NCBI GenBank assembly: GCA_020831625.1 | Contig: JAFIGD010000039.1 | Location: 1-48,802, forward strand | From: Verrucomicrobiota bacterium | GTDB lineage: Bacteria > Verrucomicrobiota > Kiritimatiellia > SS1-B-03-39 > UBA6053 | Length of the DNA stretch: 48,802 bases | Reading direction: 5' to 3' | Shown here: piece by piece, positions 32,386 to 39,852 of the stretch | Position numbering within the stretch: position 1 is the stretch's first letter | Layout: each line of letters starts with the position of its first letter | The notes under the pieces: generated by a model | What the model was told of the DNA's origin: nothing | Databases searched by the model: none | What the model saw: the letters and a program-made list of their open reading frames with translations, nothing else | Position numbers and translations under genes: made by a program

Positions 32386-32910
32386 TCAGACCTCTAAATG
32401 AAAGGGCTGAAGATGGGGGACGTCGATTTGAAAGAGGTCTTTGGGCGGGTGGTTTTTGAGAATGCCGATGAGGGTGCGGATGACGCCGGCGTGTGTGAAG
32501 ACAATCAGTCGACAGTGTGAGTGGTGAGGAACTTCATCCAGCCAGTTTGAGACCCGCCGGTTCAGGTCGGCCATGGATTCGCCTCCGGGCGGGGATTTTT
32601 CCCAGTAGGCCTCCATCCAGGGGGTCAGTTGATGTTGAGGGATATCATCCCATCGTTTGCCCTCCCACTCGCCGAAGGAGAGTTCCATCAGCTCGGGTGC
32701 ATAGTGAACGGGGAGCTGAGACCAGTGTTCGGCGGGGAGGGCGCAGCGGCGGGAGGGGCTGCTGAATACGGTATCGGATGCGCGGAACAGATCCGCTTTC
32801 AGGGTGTCGAGTTGAGGTTCCCATCCGGGTGCGGGAGGGACATCGAGTTGTCCGTAGCAGGTGCCGGGTGGAAGATCGACGGGCGGGTGACGGATCAGAA
32901 CCAGTTCCAT
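32386..32910 (-). CDS. cobC: Alpha-ribazole phosphatase-like histidine phosphatase
   Basis: A 174-residue protein starting MELVLIRHPPVDLPPGTCYG. It is a histidine-phosphatase fold: the catalytic RH at residues 7-8 (RHP where most have RHG or RHT), CYGQLDVP typical of CobC, ELSFGEWEGKRWDDI, and the second catalytic His in FTHAGVIRTL. CobC dephosphorylates alpha-ribazole 5'-phosphate or adenosylcobalamin 5'-phosphate. The ATG at 32910 overlaps cobS by 16 bp. It is the last gene of the riboswitch operon, which fits a final dephosphorylation step. Confidence 0.88.
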   Translation of the reverse strand: MELVLIRHPPVDLPPGTCYGQLDVPPAPGWEPQLDTLKADLFRASDTVFSSPSRRCALPAEHWSQLPVHYAPELMELSFGEWEGKRWDDIPQHQLTPWMEAYWEKSPPGGESMADLNRRVSNWLDEVPHHSHCRLIVFTHAGVIRTLIGILKNHPPKDLFQIDVPHLQPFHLEV

Positions 32911-33674
32911 GGCATCATGCAAAGGAGATAGAACCAGACCTCGGCCACTTGCTGGGTCGCGCCCAGGGTGTCGCCGGTGTAGCCGCCGATTTTGCGGGTG
33001 AAGAGGGGGGCGAGCACGAATTTGACGAGGAAGAGCAGGGGGAGAAGCAGCAGGGCGGCCGGGGTTCCGAAGAGGGCGAAGGGAATGAGCGTGAAAATCA
33101 GTGCCTGGATCTGTTCGCAACGGGTGGGTTTTCGTTTGGCGATGGGTTTGGATTTGCTTTGGTCCAGGTCTTGGACGTAGTTGTGGGAGGAGACGAAGGT
33201 GCCGGCGAGATAGCGGCTGCCGGTGTGGGCACTGATGAAGACCGCCGCGAGCACACGGGGGGAGACGCTTTCGATGAGGTGGGTGAGGCTGTGGACTTTC
33301 AGCAGGATCAGGAGCAGGATGCCGAGGACACCGTAGGCGCCGATCCGGCTGTCTTTCATGATGGTGAGAATTTGTTCTTTGGTGAATCCCCCGCCGAAGG
33401 CGTCACAGGTGTCGGTAAACCCGTCTTCATGGAAAGCTCCGGTGAGGAGGACCGATGCGCAGATGGAAAGCAGGACGGCGATTTCGGCGGGGAAGAGGTG
33501 CAGGGCCAGCCAGCAGGTGAGCCAGGCGAAGCCGCCGACGATCCAGCCCATAACCGGGAAATATTTTTGGGAGGCGTTGAGGGTGTCCGCGTCGTGATCG
33601 ATGTTTTTCGGGCAGGGCAGCCGGGTGAAAAACATGAGGGCGGTGAAGAACAGGTGGATTTCTCGGCGAATCAT
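32895..33674 (-). CDS. cobS: Adenosylcobinamide-GDP ribazoletransferase (cobalamin synthase)
   Basis: A 259-residue polytopic membrane protein. CobS features are FFTALMFFTRLPCPKN, TGAFHEDGFTDTCDAFGGGF (the acidic active-site motif), ILTIMKDSRIGAYGVLGILL and FTRKIGGYTGDTLGATQQVA-E. It joins adenosylcobinamide-GDP to alpha-ribazole or its phosphate at the inner membrane. It lies 14 bp after cobT and overlaps cobC by 16 bp. The cobU/cobP kinase that makes the GDP form is not in this operon and must lie elsewhere. Confidence 0.95.
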   Translation of the reverse strand: MIRREIHLFFTALMFFTRLPCPKNIDHDADTLNASQKYFPVMGWIVGGFAWLTCWLALHLFPAEIAVLLSICASVLLTGAFHEDGFTDTCDAFGGGFTKEQILTIMKDSRIGAYGVLGILLLILLKVHSLTHLIESVSPRVLAAVFISAHTGSRYLAGTFVSSHNYVQDLDQSKSKPIAKRKPTRCEQIQALIFTLIPFALFGTPAALLLLPLLFLVKFVLAPLFTRKIGGYTGDTLGATQQVAEVWFYLLCMMPWNWF

Positions 33675-33688
33675 AAAAACTTCCCCCG

Positions 33689-34693
33689 CTATTTTGTTGG
33701 GACGGCTGCATCGTCGAAGCTGGCCATGTCGTTGAGGAAGGCGGTGGCGGCATGGAGGAGGGGGAGGGCGAGGGCGCAGCCGGTGCCTTCGCCGAGACGG
33801 AGGCCGAGGTCGAGAAGCGGGGAGGCGTTGAGGTGTTCGAGAAAGCGGCGGTGACCTTGTTCGTCGGAGCAGTGGCAGAACACGGCGTTGCGGGAGAGGG
33901 CGGGTTCCATTTTCAGCGCGACGGCGTACGCGGCGGTCGCGATGAAGCCGTCCACGAGCACGAGCATGTTCCGGCGGGCGGCGGCGGCCATGCCGCCGGC
34001 GATGTGGGCGATTTCGAAACCGCCGTAGGCCTGGAGGATCGCTTCGGGCGAGGAGGGGAGGCCGTGACGTTCGACGGCGCGGTGGAGAAGGGCGCGTTTT
34101 TGGTCGAGGGCCTGTCCCTGAAGGCCGGTGCCGGCACCCACGCAGGTTTCCAGGGGTTCGCGGGTGACGGCGTGCATGATGAGCGATGCGGAGGAGGTGT
34201 TGCCGATGCCCATTTCGCCGAAGCCGATGACGTTGCAGCCGGTTTGGGCGGCGGTGTCGATGTGGGCGGCGCTTTGGGTCAGGCAGGTTTGGCGTTGCGC
34301 GGCGGACATGGCGGCGCCGTGAAGCAGATTTTCGGTGCCGCGGGCGACCTTCGCCGGAATGAGAAGCGGATGCGGCGGGAGGTCGGCATCCACGCCGACA
34401 TCGTGGATGCGCAGGTCCATTCCGTTCAGGCGGGTGAAGACATTGATGGCAGCGCCGCCGGCGAGGAAATTCAGGACCATGGCGGCGGTGACTTCACGCG
34501 GGAAGGCGCTGACGGGTTCGCGGGACAGACCGTGGTCGGCGGCGTAGACGAGAAGGGCGGGGGCGCAGAGTTCCGGGGTGAGACTTTGTTGTACGAGGCC
34601 GATTTGGAGGGCGAGGGTCTCCAGTTTTCCGAGAGAGCCGGGGGGCTTGGTTTTTCGGTCGATTTTGGAGTGGAGGGCTTGTTTAAGGGTCAT
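33689..34693 (-). CDS. cobT: Nicotinate-nucleotide-dimethylbenzimidazole phosphoribosyltransferase
   Basis: A 334-residue protein. It activates the lower-ligand base of cobamides to alpha-ribazole phosphate. Signatures are KIDRKTKPPGSLGKLETLAL near the start, VYAADHGLSREPVSAFPREV, MVLNFLAGGAAINVF, GEMGIGNTSSASLIMHAV, and the C-terminal LRLGEGTGCALALPLL with the catalytic Glu. The length is slightly short but complete. The start overlaps the upstream pseudopilin stop by 4 bp (ATGA), tying lower-ligand activation to the surface-protein genes. Confidence 0.95.
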   Translation of the reverse strand: MTLKQALHSKIDRKTKPPGSLGKLETLALQIGLVQQSLTPELCAPALLVYAADHGLSREPVSAFPREVTAAMVLNFLAGGAAINVFTRLNGMDLRIHDVGVDADLPPHPLLIPAKVARGTENLLHGAAMSAAQRQTCLTQSAAHIDTAAQTGCNVIGFGEMGIGNTSSASLIMHAVTREPLETCVGAGTGLQGQALDQKRALLHRAVERHGLPSSPEAILQAYGGFEIAHIAGGMAAAARRNMLVLVDGFIATAAYAVALKMEPALSRNAVFCHCSDEQGHRRFLEHLNASPLLDLGLRLGEGTGCALALPLLHAATAFLNDMASFDDAAVPTK

Positions 34694-35481
34694 CGACTCG
34701 TCCGCATGGGGTTCCAGTAGCCGTTTTCTTCATCGGGACCGAACCAGCCGAGATCGTGGGCATCGGCATCGCCGCCGTGGGGGTTGATGCCCGGGGGGGC
34801 GGGGGCTTGTTGGACCGCGGTGACGCTGCCATCCGCCCAGCCCACAATGGCGGCACCCAGAAACCTGAAGTGCGTGCTGGGGGATGGGCGATGGGTCGTG
34901 GGGCCTTGTCCAAAATCCCAAAAAGGCGGCTCGGAAAAGGCGTATTCCTGAATGCCGCTCCCGGAGGCGTAGGCGCTGCTGGCGAACATGACCGTGCGGG
35001 GGTTCATGATTTGACCGGGTCGCGCGGAGATTTTCAATCCGTTCGCATCATAGCCCCGGCCCGGCCAGCCGCCGATGTAGCTGCCGTTGTAGCCGTATCC
35101 GCCGGTACCCTCCTCAAAGGACTGGCTGCCCGTGAGCATTTTTTGAAACCGCGGGCATTGCACCACCCGGCGGTCTTCACCGAGGTATTCGGCCAGGAAT
35201 CCCAGTGTCGGATCAAACGGTGAATTGACTGAACTTCGGCGGCCGTGCCAGCGTCCGGTGTTCCATCGGTCGGATGCCGGGACATACTGGCCGTGGTCGA
35301 TGGCGTAGCTGAGGTTGGCGGCGACCAGCTGCCGGAGGTTGTTCATGCTTTGTGTTTGTTGGCCGCGAATGATTGCCCGTTGGACTCCGGGGACCGTCAG
35401 GGCGGCGAGCAGGGTGATGATGGCAACCACCACCAGCATTTCGACCAGCGTGAAACCTTTTTGGCGTTCCGGGAGGCTCAT
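34690..35481 (-). CDS. Type II secretion/DUF1559-like pseudopilin in the B12 operon
   Basis: A 263-residue protein with N-terminus QKGFTLVEMLVVVAIITLLA: prepilin cleavage before Phe, Glu at +5, then a hydrophobic helix. The NLRQLVAANLSYAIDHGQYV segment is the usual start of PVC pseudopilins. The C-terminal HFRFLGAAIVGWADGSVTAV resembles the H-x9-DG element of these proteins, with a longer spacing (12 residues between His and Asp). It is probably exported and held in the envelope. Overlaps of 4 bp with both the surface-protein gene and cobT place it firmly in the riboswitch operon. Its role in corrinoid handling is unknown. Confidence 0.85.
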   Translation of the reverse strand: MSLPERQKGFTLVEMLVVVAIITLLAALTVPGVQRAIIRGQQTQSMNNLRQLVAANLSYAIDHGQYVPASDRWNTGRWHGRRSSVNSPFDPTLGFLAEYLGEDRRVVQCPRFQKMLTGSQSFEEGTGGYGYNGSYIGGWPGRGYDANGLKISARPGQIMNPRTVMFASSAYASGSGIQEYAFSEPPFWDFGQGPTTHRPSPSTHFRFLGAAIVGWADGSVTAVQQAPAPPGINPHGGDADAHDLGWFGPDEENGYWNPMRTSR

Positions 35482-36782
35482 GGGGTTTCCTCTGTTTGCG
35501 TGATGTGGAGGCGCAGGAAATGCACGGGCGGGGCGGTGCCGCCGGCGGAAACCCGCACCCGGCGGAGCACACCGACCGAGGCGATGTGATGAGCGGAGGT
35601 TTCTTCGATGAGGGGGGCGTGATCGTCCACGGCTTCAAAGGGGTGTCCGTTTTCGCTGCGCGCGATGGGGTTCCAGTTTTGGAGGTCGGTGCTGAGCTGG
35701 ATTTCCAGGATCAGATCGACGGCCCGCTCGTCGCGGGTGAATTCGATGAACATATCGCCGTCGGTTTGAACCGCGCGGGAGACGGGCGCGGCGTCGGGAA
35801 GGGTGCCGGAGCGGCCGAGAGCATAGCTGAAGAGGTTGGGAATGCCGTCATTCCGGGGGCTGTGGTTGGGTTCCCGCTGATCCGGATCGGCGATTTGTTG
35901 TGCCGCCCAGGTGGCGAAGTCCATGTCGCGGGAAATGATTCCGACCGATTCAAGGTCGAATCCGCCGGAGCCCCAGGTCACCCAGGCGTCGTAAACGGGT
36001 TGACCGGAGCTGTCTTTGAAATGGCCGTTTCCGGGAATGTCCACGATCCGGACATAGCGGATTTCGTCCAGGTTCACATCCCCGTTGAGCACAGAAGGAT
36101 GATCCTCCAGAGACTTGAGATCAAAGGGGGTTCCCCAGGATTCGCCGTAGGCGTTGATATGTTTTCCGGCGAGGCCGTAAACGTTCCGGGGGTCAATATA
36201 CCCGTATGAGCCCACGGCTGCAGGCGTGAGAGACACGGAGGGAAACCGCGCGAAGTCTGTACCGTTGCTGGAGACCTCCACATAAGCCAGTTCGGCAAAG
36301 AGGGAGGTTTTTCCGCCGATGGCGTTTTCGAAAACGACAAAGTCGGCGCCGGACAGGTTGCGGATGGGGGTGTCGAATGCGAGGGTGATGGATCCGGGCG
36401 GAACGCCGTCTCCGATTTGTGTGCTGTTCAGATCCCCCAGAGAGACGACGGCAAAGTTGTCTCCCGTGACCGGACCGAGGACCTGGTTCAGGTCTGTCCA
36501 ATCGGGGGAGACCCCCGGGGCCGGGCTGTAATCCTCCACGGAGGCCACCCACCCGAAAAAGAGGGGGTTGACGATGTTGTCGGGGTTGGCATAGGTCCCG
36601 TTATGCTGCATTAACCGTGATTTTCCCTCCCCATGGGGGCCGATAAAACCGGGGACGGGGGCGTCGAAGGTGTTCGCCGGGTCGTTGAGCCCGCCGGAGT
36701 AGGGGCCCTGGGCCTGAAGCAGGCCGGCGGTCAGGAGGATGACAGCCCGGAGAGCGGGGCGTTTCATGAGGGAGGGATTCAT
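35478..36782 (-). CDS. Secreted cell-surface protein of the type found in B12 loci
   Basis: A 434-residue protein from ATG 36782 (AGGA ribosome site upstream) with signal peptide MKRPALRAVILLTAGLLQAQ. A beta-sandwich-like domain spans about 40-290: DLNQVLGPVTGDNFAVVSLG, GSITLAFDTPIRNLSGADFV-VFENAI, FAELAYVEVSSNGTDFARFP, RYVRIVDIPGNGHFKDSSGQ and AWVTWGSGGFDLESVGII. This pattern is recalled from 'cell surface proteins' in cobalamin-riboswitch loci of Bacteroidota. The tail resembles PVC exported proteins (LSTDLQNWNPIARSENGHPF, then FLRLHI). No PEP-CTERM signal is seen. It starts 1 bp after the DUF4465 gene and overlaps the pseudopilin gene. It is probably a corrinoid-binding or capture component. 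That is inference. Confidence 0.75.
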   Translation of the reverse strand: MNPSLMKRPALRAVILLTAGLLQAQGPYSGGLNDPANTFDAPVPGFIGPHGEGKSRLMQHNGTYANPDNIVNPLFFGWVASVEDYSPAPGVSPDWTDLNQVLGPVTGDNFAVVSLGDLNSTQIGDGVPPGSITLAFDTPIRNLSGADFVVFENAIGGKTSLFAELAYVEVSSNGTDFARFPSVSLTPAAVGSYGYIDPRNVYGLAGKHINAYGESWGTPFDLKSLEDHPSVLNGDVNLDEIRYVRIVDIPGNGHFKDSSGQPVYDAWVTWGSGGFDLESVGIISRDMDFATWAAQQIADPDQREPNHSPRNDGIPNLFSYALGRSGTLPDAAPVSRAVQTDGDMFIEFTRDERAVDLILEIQLSTDLQNWNPIARSENGHPFEAVDDHAPLIEETSAHHIASVGVLRRVRVSAGGTAPPVHFLRLHITQTEETP

Positions 36783-36783
36783 G

Positions 36784-37647
36784 TCAGGTCCTGTTTTTGC
36801 GCAGAAGGCTGAAAAGGACGCCGGCACCGCCGAGAAGGAGAAGAAGGGTTCCCGGTTCGGGAATCGCGCCAATGTTGTCGATGGCGAAAAAGTTGGGGGT
36901 GTTCATGCCGAAGGATCCGGTGTCAGAGGAGGTCAGCGTGAACGCCAGGGTGTCGACGGTTCCGAGCGGGGAGAGGTCGATGAAGCTCCAGTTGTCCAGG
37001 ATATAATGTTCGCTGACGTCTTCGGAGCGGAAATCGGCGAGGTAGAAATTGACCGTACCTGTTGATGCCGTGTTGTTCAGGCCTTCGATGGTGAGCAAAA
37101 ACCAATCCTCGTCCCCGCCGGTGAATTGTTTTGAGAAGGGGTCTCCGTCCAACATGCTGAAGTAGGCATAGGAGGTGTTGGCAACAAAAAGGCCCCGGCC
37201 GTTGAAATTTTGATGGGCCGTGAAGGATACGGACACGGGGCCGCCGGCGATGCCGTAGGTTTGGCTGCCTCCCTGACCGGCGCCCGGTTTGGCGCTGTAT
37301 TGGTTCGCAAGTCCGCCGGTGCTGTTATCGGTCACACGCGAGTAAGCCCAGCCGCTCCAGAAGTCGTATTGAAACGAACCCTCCCCGTCCGGTTGGTCAT
37401 AGGCGCGGTTGTACGTGTTCTGGAAAATTCCGATGGTCCCGCCGCTGCCGGACGTGAAGGTGGAATTTTTGGTGACGATGCTGCCCGACCCCGGTCCCCA
37501 GGGATCGTTCGTGATTGTTTCGGTTCCGGTGAGGTGTTCGCCGTTCTCGTGGTTGCCGGAGGCGAAACTCAGGTCTTCGAGGGTGATCTGGGACGCTTGC
37601 AGGCTGAAAGCGGCCAGCAAGGCAATGACACACGCATGTGTTTTCAT
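36784..37647 (-). CDS. DUF4465-domain protein with PEP-CTERM anchor
   Basis: A 287-residue protein. A signal peptide (MKTHACVIALLAAFSLQA) leads to a DUF4465 domain: FQYDFWSGWAYSRVTDNSTG, NQYSAKPGAGQGGSQTYGIA, ILDNWSFIDLSPLGTVDTLA and FGMNTPNFFAIDNI. The C-terminus IPEPGTLLLLLGGAGVLFSL-LRKNRT is a PEP-CTERM/exosortase sorting signal. DUF4465 proteins in Bacteroidota are recurrently encoded in vitamin B12-regulated loci. Here the gene is first behind a cobalamin riboswitch, 74 nt after it, with an AAAGGA ribosome site. A surface corrinoid-binding role is a reasonable inference. Attachment by PEP-CTERM instead of a lipid anchor is notable. Confidence 0.82.
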   Translation of the reverse strand: MKTHACVIALLAAFSLQASQITLEDLSFASGNHENGEHLTGTETITNDPWGPGSGSIVTKNSTFTSGSGGTIGIFQNTYNRAYDQPDGEGSFQYDFWSGWAYSRVTDNSTGGLANQYSAKPGAGQGGSQTYGIAGGPVSVSFTAHQNFNGRGLFVANTSYAYFSMLDGDPFSKQFTGGDEDWFLLTIEGLNNTASTGTVNFYLADFRSEDVSEHYILDNWSFIDLSPLGTVDTLAFTLTSSDTGSFGMNTPNFFAIDNIGAIPEPGTLLLLLGGAGVLFSLLRKNRT

Positions 37648-38004: not shown

Positions 38005-39852
38005 TCAGTCGAATGACTGGCTTAACAGAAGACTTGTGGTGTCGATCCGGGCAGTGGGGGCGGTTTCGGCGGCGCGGATTTCAAGGACGTTTTTTGTGGC
38101 GAGCCACTCTTTGGGGAAGGGGACGTCGAAGATGCCGATGTCGTTGTGTTGAAAGGCAAGGGGGTTTCCGTTGAGGAAAAAGTGATGTTGATGATTCCGC
38201 AGGCCGGCGTGGACGATGCGCAGGTGCGCGTGGCTTGCGTTCGGGACCGTATTTGCGGGAAGATCAAGGTTGAGGGTGAGGGATTCGCCCGCCGGGAGTC
38301 GCTGAAGGATTTGCGGGGCGTAAAACTGGTGGGTTATCACGGAAAGTGGGTCGGGGGAACCGCCGAGGGTGACTTCATACACGACGGTTTCCCGGACGGC
38401 GAGGGTGACACCGGTTGTCCAGGCGGTTCCCGAGGCGGCAAGAGGGGTATTGATCATCGTGAGGCTTTCGTCGGGAATGCGCTTGATGATGCCGGTGATT
38501 TCGCTTCCGCGGGGCGCGGTGATGGTCAGGGGCATGTTGAGGGGCGTTCGCTGGTCGTTATAGACGGCGACGATGAGGCGGTTGTCGTTCAGGGCGGCGG
38601 TCACCCAGATATCGGGATGGGGGGAGCGGGTTTCCATGAGACGGCCGCGGAAGTTGCGGAGCATTTTGAAGCCGGTGGCGACGCCGTTGCCGTGATGGGC
38701 CTCGTGGGCGGCGCGGGCCTCGGCTTTGTCGGGCACGCGGTCGAGGAGATAGAGCACGTCCCGCATGAAGTAGGTATAGTGGGCGCGGTCGCGGATGGCG
38801 GGCGGGGTGGTGTTGTAGCCGCCCTGGGCTGGCCCGGGGCGTTCGGGGTCGAGATCGCCACCGGCTTCGGTGTTGTAGACTTTGAGGAAACGTCCGTGGC
38901 GGGTGCGGGTGTAGGCGTTGAGCATCTCATAGGATGCGGCCACGATGCGGGTGTCGCCGCCGTAGTGATGCTCCGCATAGCCATCGATCCATTCGATGCC
39001 GGCGTCGACAGTGGGCCGGTGAACGGTCTCCCAAGTCGCGTATCCGTTTTGGTGGATGTGAAAATCCCAGCCGGCCACCAGCAAGACCTCGGGGTTGGCG
39101 GCTTTGAGGGCGGGGGCGAAGACTTTCAGCATGGCGTTGTACCATTTGACGTTTTGAGCCCCGGGCCAGAATCTCTCCTGGGTGACATCGCGGCCCCAGG
39201 GTTGGGTCTCCGCGCGGTAAAGGGTGTTGCGCCAGGTCCAGGTTGCGCCTTCTTCGGTGCCCTGGGGCATGAAACGGGTGGCGAGGGCGTCAAAACGGCC
39301 GTTATCGGCGCGGACTGCGACCCGTTGAGAGGTCCACACCAGGTGGTCGGTGGGCTCCTGTTCATAAAGCAGGGTCATGGGGGTGTCGGGTTCGACTGAA
39401 TCCTGACGGTAGAAGGCTCCGTTGTAGTTGACGCCGGGCCGCACGCCCCAGTTTAGGTAGGGTTCGTTCCAGAATTCGACGATGGGCTGCCGGTCGAGAT
39501 GACGGGATTGGGTGCCGTAGGTGGTTGCAACGGTTGTGAGACGGCGGGTCCAGTCGGGAGATTCAACGATCAGAGCGGGTTGATAGCGGTCCCAGAAGCA
39601 TTCGACGAAATGGGTGATTCCCTCCGGGGGGGATTGCGGGGTGCCGGGGTTGTGGGCGATGGTTCGCACGGATTCCACGCCCCAGGTCTCGATCCGTTCG
39701 GGGGGGAGCGGGGTGGCGTGGACGCCGAAGAGACCGCGCGGGACATGGGTTTGACTGTTCAGAGTCCGGGCGCGGCCGGTGACCTGGAGGGTGTCGGACA
39801 GGGCCGGAAACAAGCCGGAAATCAGGCAGCAGATCAGAATCGCATATTTCAT
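38005..39852 (-). CDS. Secreted clan GH-A glycoside hydrolase, GH86/agarase-like
   Basis: A 615-residue protein with signal peptide MKYAILICCLISGLFPALS. The catalytic barrel shows IVEFWNEPYLNWGVRPG (acid/base Glu130 in WNEP), GWDFHIHQNGYATWETV, WIDGYAEHHYGGDT and LKVYNTEAGGDLDPE (candidate nucleophile Glu329). C-terminal beta-sandwich domains follow (VVYEVTLGG, SHAHLRIVHAGLRNHQHHFF). The WNEPYLNW and NTEAGG motifs and the C-terminal domain recall beta-agarases/porphyranases of GH86, but other GH-A families are possible. The substrate is probably a polysaccharide outside the cell. It stands alone, upstream of the riboswitch and outside that transcript. No ribosome site is obvious. Confidence 0.65.
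   Translation of the reverse strand: MKYAILICCLISGLFPALSDTLQVTGRARTLNSQTHVPRGLFGVHATPLPPERIETWGVESVRTIAHNPGTPQSPPEGITHFVECFWDRYQPALIVESPDWTRRLTTVATTYGTQSRHLDRQPIVEFWNEPYLNWGVRPGVNYNGAFYRQDSVEPDTPMTLLYEQEPTDHLVWTSQRVAVRADNGRFDALATRFMPQGTEEGATWTWRNTLYRAETQPWGRDVTQERFWPGAQNVKWYNAMLKVFAPALKAANPEVLLVAGWDFHIHQNGYATWETVHRPTVDAGIEWIDGYAEHHYGGDTRIVAASYEMLNAYTRTRHGRFLKVYNTEAGGDLDPERPGPAQGGYNTTPPAIRDRAHYTYFMRDVLYLLDRVPDKAEARAAHEAHHGNGVATGFKMLRNFRGRLMETRSPHPDIWVTAALNDNRLIVAVYNDQRTPLNMPLTITAPRGSEITGIIKRIPDESLTMINTPLAASGTAWTTGVTLAVRETVVYEVTLGGSPDPLSVITHQFYAPQILQRLPAGESLTLNLDLPANTVPNASHAHLRIVHAGLRNHQHHFFLNGNPLAFQHNDIGIFDVPFPKEWLATKNVLEIRAAETAPTARIDTTSLLLSQSFD

Follow-up and report, generated by a model that had tools for sequence, protein, structure and literature searches.

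A gene for a type IV pilin-like protein (pseudopilin) of 263 residues lies in a cobalamin riboswitch-headed operon of a Verrucomicrobiota bacterium, within a 48,802-nucleotide stretch of DNA (contig JAFIGD010000039.1 of NCBI GenBank assembly GCA_020831625.1, positions 1 to 48,802; hereafter the window). On the minus strand the operon runs from the riboswitch through a DUF4465/PEP-CTERM gene, a gene for a secreted beta-sandwich surface protein (SURF) and the pseudopilin gene to cobT, cobS and a cobC-like gene (Table 1). Judging by gene order and predicted control across many genomes, this pilin is very likely a dedicated part of corrinoid acquisition in bacteria of the Planctomycetes-Verrucomicrobia-Chlamydiae (PVC) group and in Hydrogenedentota. 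The fuller statement, in which it is a dedicated riboswitch-controlled corrinoid-acquisition component acting by the mechanism proposed below, we consider moderately probable, and to its narrower part, that the pilin serves the outer-membrane step itself, as gene order would suggest, we give slightly less than even weight. Genomes and loci are designated by G and L numbers, respectively, G000 being the genome of the window.

By its predicted leader, hydrophobic helix and glutamate at position +5, the protein is a member of the type IV pilin-like (pseudopilin) superfamily. Its N-terminus is that of a type IV prepilin, matching Pfam N_methyl PF07963 (E 2.7e-8) and TIGR02532 (above cut-off), and family scans recognised nothing beyond this region. 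The AlphaFold2 (AF2) model (predicted local distance difference test (pLDDT) 93.1, predicted template modelling score (pTM) 0.89) has a helix at residues 12-63, behind which some 200 residues form a compact C-terminal domain. Among 51 relatives, F10, E14, C109, YGYN 129-132, HFR 204-206, W215, D217 and G218 are invariant and GWFG at 245-248 is near-invariant. The reading frame and its 4-bp overlaps with SURF and cobT, as given in a preliminary description of the window, were confirmed from the sequence, but this copy departs from the canonical form of the "H-x-DG-like" motif named there: the histidine of H-X9-DG is Phe207, and TIGR04294 (H-X9-DG-CTERM), which matched 29 of the 51 relatives, did not match the window pilin. 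Though outside TIGR04294, the window pilin would resemble the H-X9-DG group in its working. The GspG model TIGR01710 matched the N-terminal 60 residues at E 2e-9 with 37.6 bits, below its equivalog cut-off of 88.85, and the ComGC model gave E 7e-8. Assembly ATPases of the T2SSE/PilB type were present in all 38 genomes checked (11 in G000).

The pilin is conserved together with its upstream neighbour. In a class set of 346 genomes, a first profile (E<1e-40) found it in 38 genomes of 29 genera, as a single copy in each, and an improved profile found it in 41; within the family, a four-sequence profile gave four matches above 440 bits, the next best reaching at most 119. SURF (58 genomes of the class set) occurs in 37 of the 41 pilin genomes and in 21 of the 305 pilin-less ones (Fisher p=3e-30, a value that overstates independence because the genomes are related), and DUF4465 (49 genomes) in 27 of the 41. 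Nearly all class pilins stand behind SURF or a DUF4465-SURF fusion; SURF is directly upstream on the same strand in 34/41 pilin genomes, the remainder being mostly contig breaks. The SURF-pilin pattern extends over many families and at least four phyla, and the 4-bp overlap between the two genes recurs at L026, L065, L069 and L071, the last being a locus of the cultured relative Cerasicoccus frondis. On a tree the B12-linked pilins cluster, with 5 label changes compared to 51 for shuffled labels, and even these 5 overstate the scatter because some loci of a second type, described below, were counted as "other". The conserved linkage that would, according to the preliminary description, define a new component was thus borne out. 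Its suggested check, whether this pilin rather than random pilins accompanies cobT and DUF4465, came out in favour of DUF4465 but not of cobT, which adjoins the pilin in the window genome alone; downstream genes vary, L219 alone has a cobS-like gene close to its pilin, and we rejected cobT as a conserved partner. At two loci SURF and pilin share one uninterrupted frame, L074:7778-10852 (1024 aa, a Hydrogenedentota metagenome-assembled genome (MAG)) and L072:876-3323 (815 aa, a MAG labelled Rhodothermaeota). Since the prepilin segment is internal there, these two pilins should escape prepilin peptidase, barring an internal start.

The riboswitch, which was absent from the preliminary account, is, with DUF4465 and SURF, one of the conserved partners. 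In the window the match scores above the RF00174 gathering threshold and covers positions 47-167 of the model; the complete element is probably longer than the matched interval. In the class flanks RF00174 was found at 24 of 34 loci, and at 8 others the contig breaks off before the start of the module is reached, so that it heads 24 of the 26 loci with intact upstream sequence and is truly absent from two (L173 and L178). It is likewise present at the family loci L026-L028, at the named MAG loci L065-L068 and L073, and at L074, L075 and L080; L076 and L079 gave weaker matches of the adenosylcobalamin type, and a search at L069, L071, L072, L077 and L078 found none. In a whole-genome search of 59 genomes with strict filters the element at the pilin locus was often the sole one detected, G000 included, where sole means the only one detected, since the filters missed at least one element, of 53 bits, in G008.

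As a control, we derived a covariance model from these elements, which has few base pairs and is therefore mostly a model of sequence, and ran it over 979 kb of DNA comprising 83 loci of other pilins. Strong matches (E<1e-8) appeared at L082, L084 and L094 only, none being found at the remaining 80, and the pilins downstream of these three matches score 104-161 bits with the family profile and prove to be divergent members. Together with L259-L261, L263 and L264 these loci include a second, divergent type with the order riboswitch, PEP-CTERM protein, SURF-like protein and pilin, which we observed at L259, L260, L261, L263, L264, L082 and L094. Four genomes of the window's genus or family that are without the first type (G003, G007, G009 and G010) carry this second type. 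In family f23, L216 and L217 have a strong cobalamin riboswitch and DUF4465 followed directly by a strongly diverged pilin. That an ordinary pseudopilin landed by chance in a B12 operon can be put aside with near certainty: G000 has 15 further pilin-like matches and the adjacency to cobT is unique to it, but the linkage recurs across families and phyla and the control is clean.

Beyond the class, riboswitch-linked pilin loci occur in Planctomycetota, where 18 of 294 genomes have the pilin, and in Lentisphaerota and Hydrogenedentota. The riboswitch lies 1.4-2.5 kb upstream at five planctomycete loci (L245-L249) and immediately upstream at L257 and L258. The planctomycete locus L256 reads riboswitch, DUF4465, SURF, pilin, BtuF-type protein (PF01497), PF00005 ATPase (BtuD) and FecCD PF01032 permease (BtuC); the pilin is coupled directly to BtuF-BtuD-BtuC by overlapping genes, and the operon contains no TonB receptor. 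At L257 the pilin is followed by a nitroreductase (BluB-like) and a CobQ-like gene, and at the lentisphaerotal loci L079 and L081 a BtuF-type protein stands beside the pilin, with CbiA/CobB/CobQ-type genes downstream. In two planctomycetes (L078 and L255) a 652-aa protein with an N-terminus like that of extracytoplasmic function (ECF) sigma factors precedes the pilin.

The genes accompanying the pilin resemble known B12 binders to different degrees. DUF4465 (BtuJ) proteins bind B12 (PMC12751083; PMC13398666), among them the verrucomicrobial Coraliomargarita akajimensis protein D5EK51 (PDB 9HMU; PMC13398666). The window DUF4465 protein matches 9HMU at E 1e-45 and, with its PF14717 score (cut-off 25 bits), is a member of the family; we predict it to be a B12-binding surface protein. 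The Pfam scan of the window SURF matched no family. A SURF profile of 38 relatives matched the C-terminal part of 8blw_B, a YncE family protein, at E 4e-6; we take 8blw_B to be BtuGH and the matched part to be its BtuH half. On this profile match SURF would be remotely BtuH-like. The fold did not confirm it as BtuH: with the AF2 model (pLDDT 88.8), the best Foldseek matches were weak discoidin-like or other beta-sandwich proteins, with no BtuH entry among them.

A pilin-less version of the operon exists in a sister lineage, family f21, where L212-L215 have the order DUF4465, TonB receptor and SURF, the receptor consisting of Plug and barrel domains. Close relatives of this receptor (E<1e-150) were found in all nine f21 genomes tested and in none of the pilin genomes, where the best match reached E 3e-41. 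Upstream of L212-L215 we observed truncated or weak riboswitch matches only. The window operon contains no TonB receptor; G000 has four Plug proteins, on other contigs. In 17 of the 26 pilin genomes outside the Verrucomicrobiia class set, to which this count is confined, the search detected no Plug domain.

We propose the following mechanism. When B12 is low the riboswitch would be expected to open, and the DUF4465 binder, the putatively BtuH-like surface protein and the pilin would be made. The pilin, predicted to be processed by prepilin peptidase, would be assembled as the tip or a subunit of a filament by type IV pilus or type II secretion machinery encoded elsewhere, and would either hold or display the proteins that bind B12, or use its own conserved C-terminal domain to bind corrinoid. 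The corrinoid would then be delivered across the outer membrane to BtuF-BtuCD, the pilin occupying the step served by a BtuB/TonB receptor in the sister lineage. A more specific version, a TonB-independent route in PVC bacteria in which a corrinoid-binding pseudopilus is extended, picks up B12 by means of its own head domain or of BtuJ/BtuH-type proteins, and is drawn back through a secretin to pass the cargo on to BtuF, we put forward tentatively, as a possibility of roughly one in three.

Several findings weigh against the proposed role of the pilin. TonB receptors are present as well in most pilin genomes of the Verrucomicrobiia (1-6 Plug domains; overall range 0-6), and in G017, G028, G083 and G298 a cobalamin riboswitch is followed by a TonB receptor, either immediately or within a few kb, so that uptake by the pilin and uptake by TonB receptors do not exclude each other. 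The window DUF4465 protein has a phenylalanine (MNTPNF) where the conserved B12-contacting tyrosine is expected (motif according to PMC12751083); the DUF4465 protein of L018 keeps the tyrosine in this loop (MNTPDY). The C-terminal domain of the pilin found no fold match in the PDB at E<1e-3, and the fold of this head domain gave no clue to a ligand. The pilin of a Gimesia-like group of planctomycetes (L250-L254) stands without a detected riboswitch and among other neighbours, namely a gene for a small, lipoprotein-like product and one for an NHL-repeat-like protein. Given the riboswitch-linked TonB receptors of some pilin genomes, the pilin as a strict BtuB substitute was not upheld: by the operon comparison it often takes the place of the TonB receptor in the operon, yet is no strict substitute genome-wide. 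At L154 (G083:C84) a TonB receptor and the DUF4465-SURF-pilin operon are each preceded by a cobalamin riboswitch of their own, the two elements lying about 2.3 kb from each other.

Alternatively, the pilin could be an export or anchoring helper, that is, a minor pseudopilin that recruits SURF and DUF4465 to a type II secretion system (T2SS) or to the surface and makes no contact with B12. Pseudopilins are classical T2SS parts, the pilin gene is tightly coupled to genes for secreted, often PEP-CTERM, proteins, and the in-frame SURF-pilin reading frames of L072 and L074 fit such a role. At L073, L075, L076, L080, L257 and L258, however, the riboswitch is followed directly by the pilin, and neither SURF nor DUF4465 stands beside it, which argues against the pilin being merely a helper of those two proteins. 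The pilin adjoins BtuF at L079 and L081, and the TonB-receptor loci make SURF and DUF4465 without a pilin. We regard the helper role as unlikely, with about one chance in four. Less probable still, at roughly one chance in seven, is a scavenging or adhesion fibre that B12 starvation would induce: corrinoids or B12 producers would be captured, stored or tethered by the filament outside the cell, and import would proceed through a separate porin or TonB receptor. Riboswitch control, the general TonB receptors of many pilin genomes and the B12-binding BtuJ proteins that Bacteroides thetaiotaomicron sheds on vesicles (PMC12751083) speak for a scavenging fibre of this kind, and the pilin genomes without a detectable Plug domain and the direct junction of pilin and BtuF-BtuD-BtuC at L256 speak against it.

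Several known systems come close to the pilin operon or to the pilin itself. The BtuB/BtuG/BtuH/BtuJ operons of B. thetaiotaomicron (PMC12751083; PMC13398666) likewise encode riboswitch-controlled surface B12 binders (DUF4465 corresponding to BtuJ, and SURF possibly, at a distance, to BtuH), and BtuFCD is common to uptake of that type and to at least one relative operon here (L256), but the usual pilin locus is without BtuB and BtuG, has a pseudopilin and carries PEP-CTERM signals instead of the reported lipoproteins. The H-X9-DG/DUF1559 pilin-like proteins of PVC bacteria (TIGR04294, PF07596) share the type III N-terminus and a C-terminal [H]-X9-DG region with the pilin, which forms a distinct subfamily with W78, GGYGYN, HFR, WxDG, a C-terminal GWFGP and a fixed B12 context. 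Competence pseudopili and DNA-importing type IV pili (ComGC and kin) belong to the same N-terminal family and offer the analogy of a filament serving uptake through the envelope; here the filament would carry a small cofactor, the C-terminal domain of the pilin has an unrelated fold, and the operon is without assembly genes. With the major T2SS pseudopilin GspG (TIGR01710) the helix alone matches, and no gsp genes are adjacent to the window pilin. In the open-licence PMC literature we found no paper joining pilins with B12 uptake or cobalamin riboswitches, and the two DUF4465 papers (PMC12751083; PMC13398666) do not mention pilins; a pilin component of corrinoid uptake thus appears to be undescribed.

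This family provides an orphan pilin with a specific and testable ligand context, in that the riboswitch indicates which metabolite is concerned and B12 binders of a known kind stand next to the pilin. B12 is too large for ordinary porins, and diderms without BtuB must still bring it across the outer membrane; if the proposal is correct, the pilin route would, in phyla without TonB receptors, fill the place of the outer-membrane system for B12 uptake that is missing there. Were the pilin to bind or import corrinoids, envelope biology would gain a case in which a pilin drives the import of a small cofactor. Single pilin-like genes without a known purpose number in the dozens in PVC phyla, and the same result would suggest that others among them are substrate-specific uptake parts.

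Table 1. Features of the pilin operon in the window, from the operon head downstream.
Feature	Position	Strand	Evidence or remark
Cobalamin riboswitch RF00174	37731-37846	minus	operon head; 62.5 bits, E 3.3e-13, gathering threshold 31.5 bits
DUF4465 (BtuJ-like) gene	36784-37647	minus	PF14717 170.8 bits; PF07589 (C-terminal PEP-CTERM)
SURF, secreted beta-sandwich surface protein	35478-36782	minus	profile and AF2 model
Overlap of SURF stop and pilin start, 4 bp (ATGA; TCA/CAT)	35478-35481	minus	sequence
Pseudopilin, 263 aa	34690-35481	minus	PF07963 and AF2 model
Prepilin cleavage/methylation segment, residues 6-28	35398-35466	minus	F10, E14 invariant in 51 relatives
Pilin residues 204-218, HFRFLGAAIVGWADG	34828-34872	minus	H204, F205, R206, W215, D217, G218 invariant in 51 relatives
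Pilin residues 245-257, GWFGPDEENGYWN, C-terminal signature common to several phyla	34711-34749	minus	
Overlap of pilin stop and cobT start, 4 bp	34690-34693	minus	coupling specific to this genome
cobT (nicotinate-nucleotide-dimethylbenzimidazole phosphoribosyltransferase)	33689-34693	minus	TIGR03160 406 bits
cobS (adenosylcobinamide-GDP ribazoletransferase)	32895-33674	minus	NF001277 289 bits, above cut-off
cobC-like alpha-ribazole phosphatase	32386-32985	minus	TIGR03162 146 bits, below cut-off 162.9

On the 5' side of the riboswitch, at 38005-39852 on the minus strand, the window encodes a secreted protein of 615 aa that was matched by no family in Pfam or NCBIfam and whose sequence resembles the glycoside-hydrolase type.
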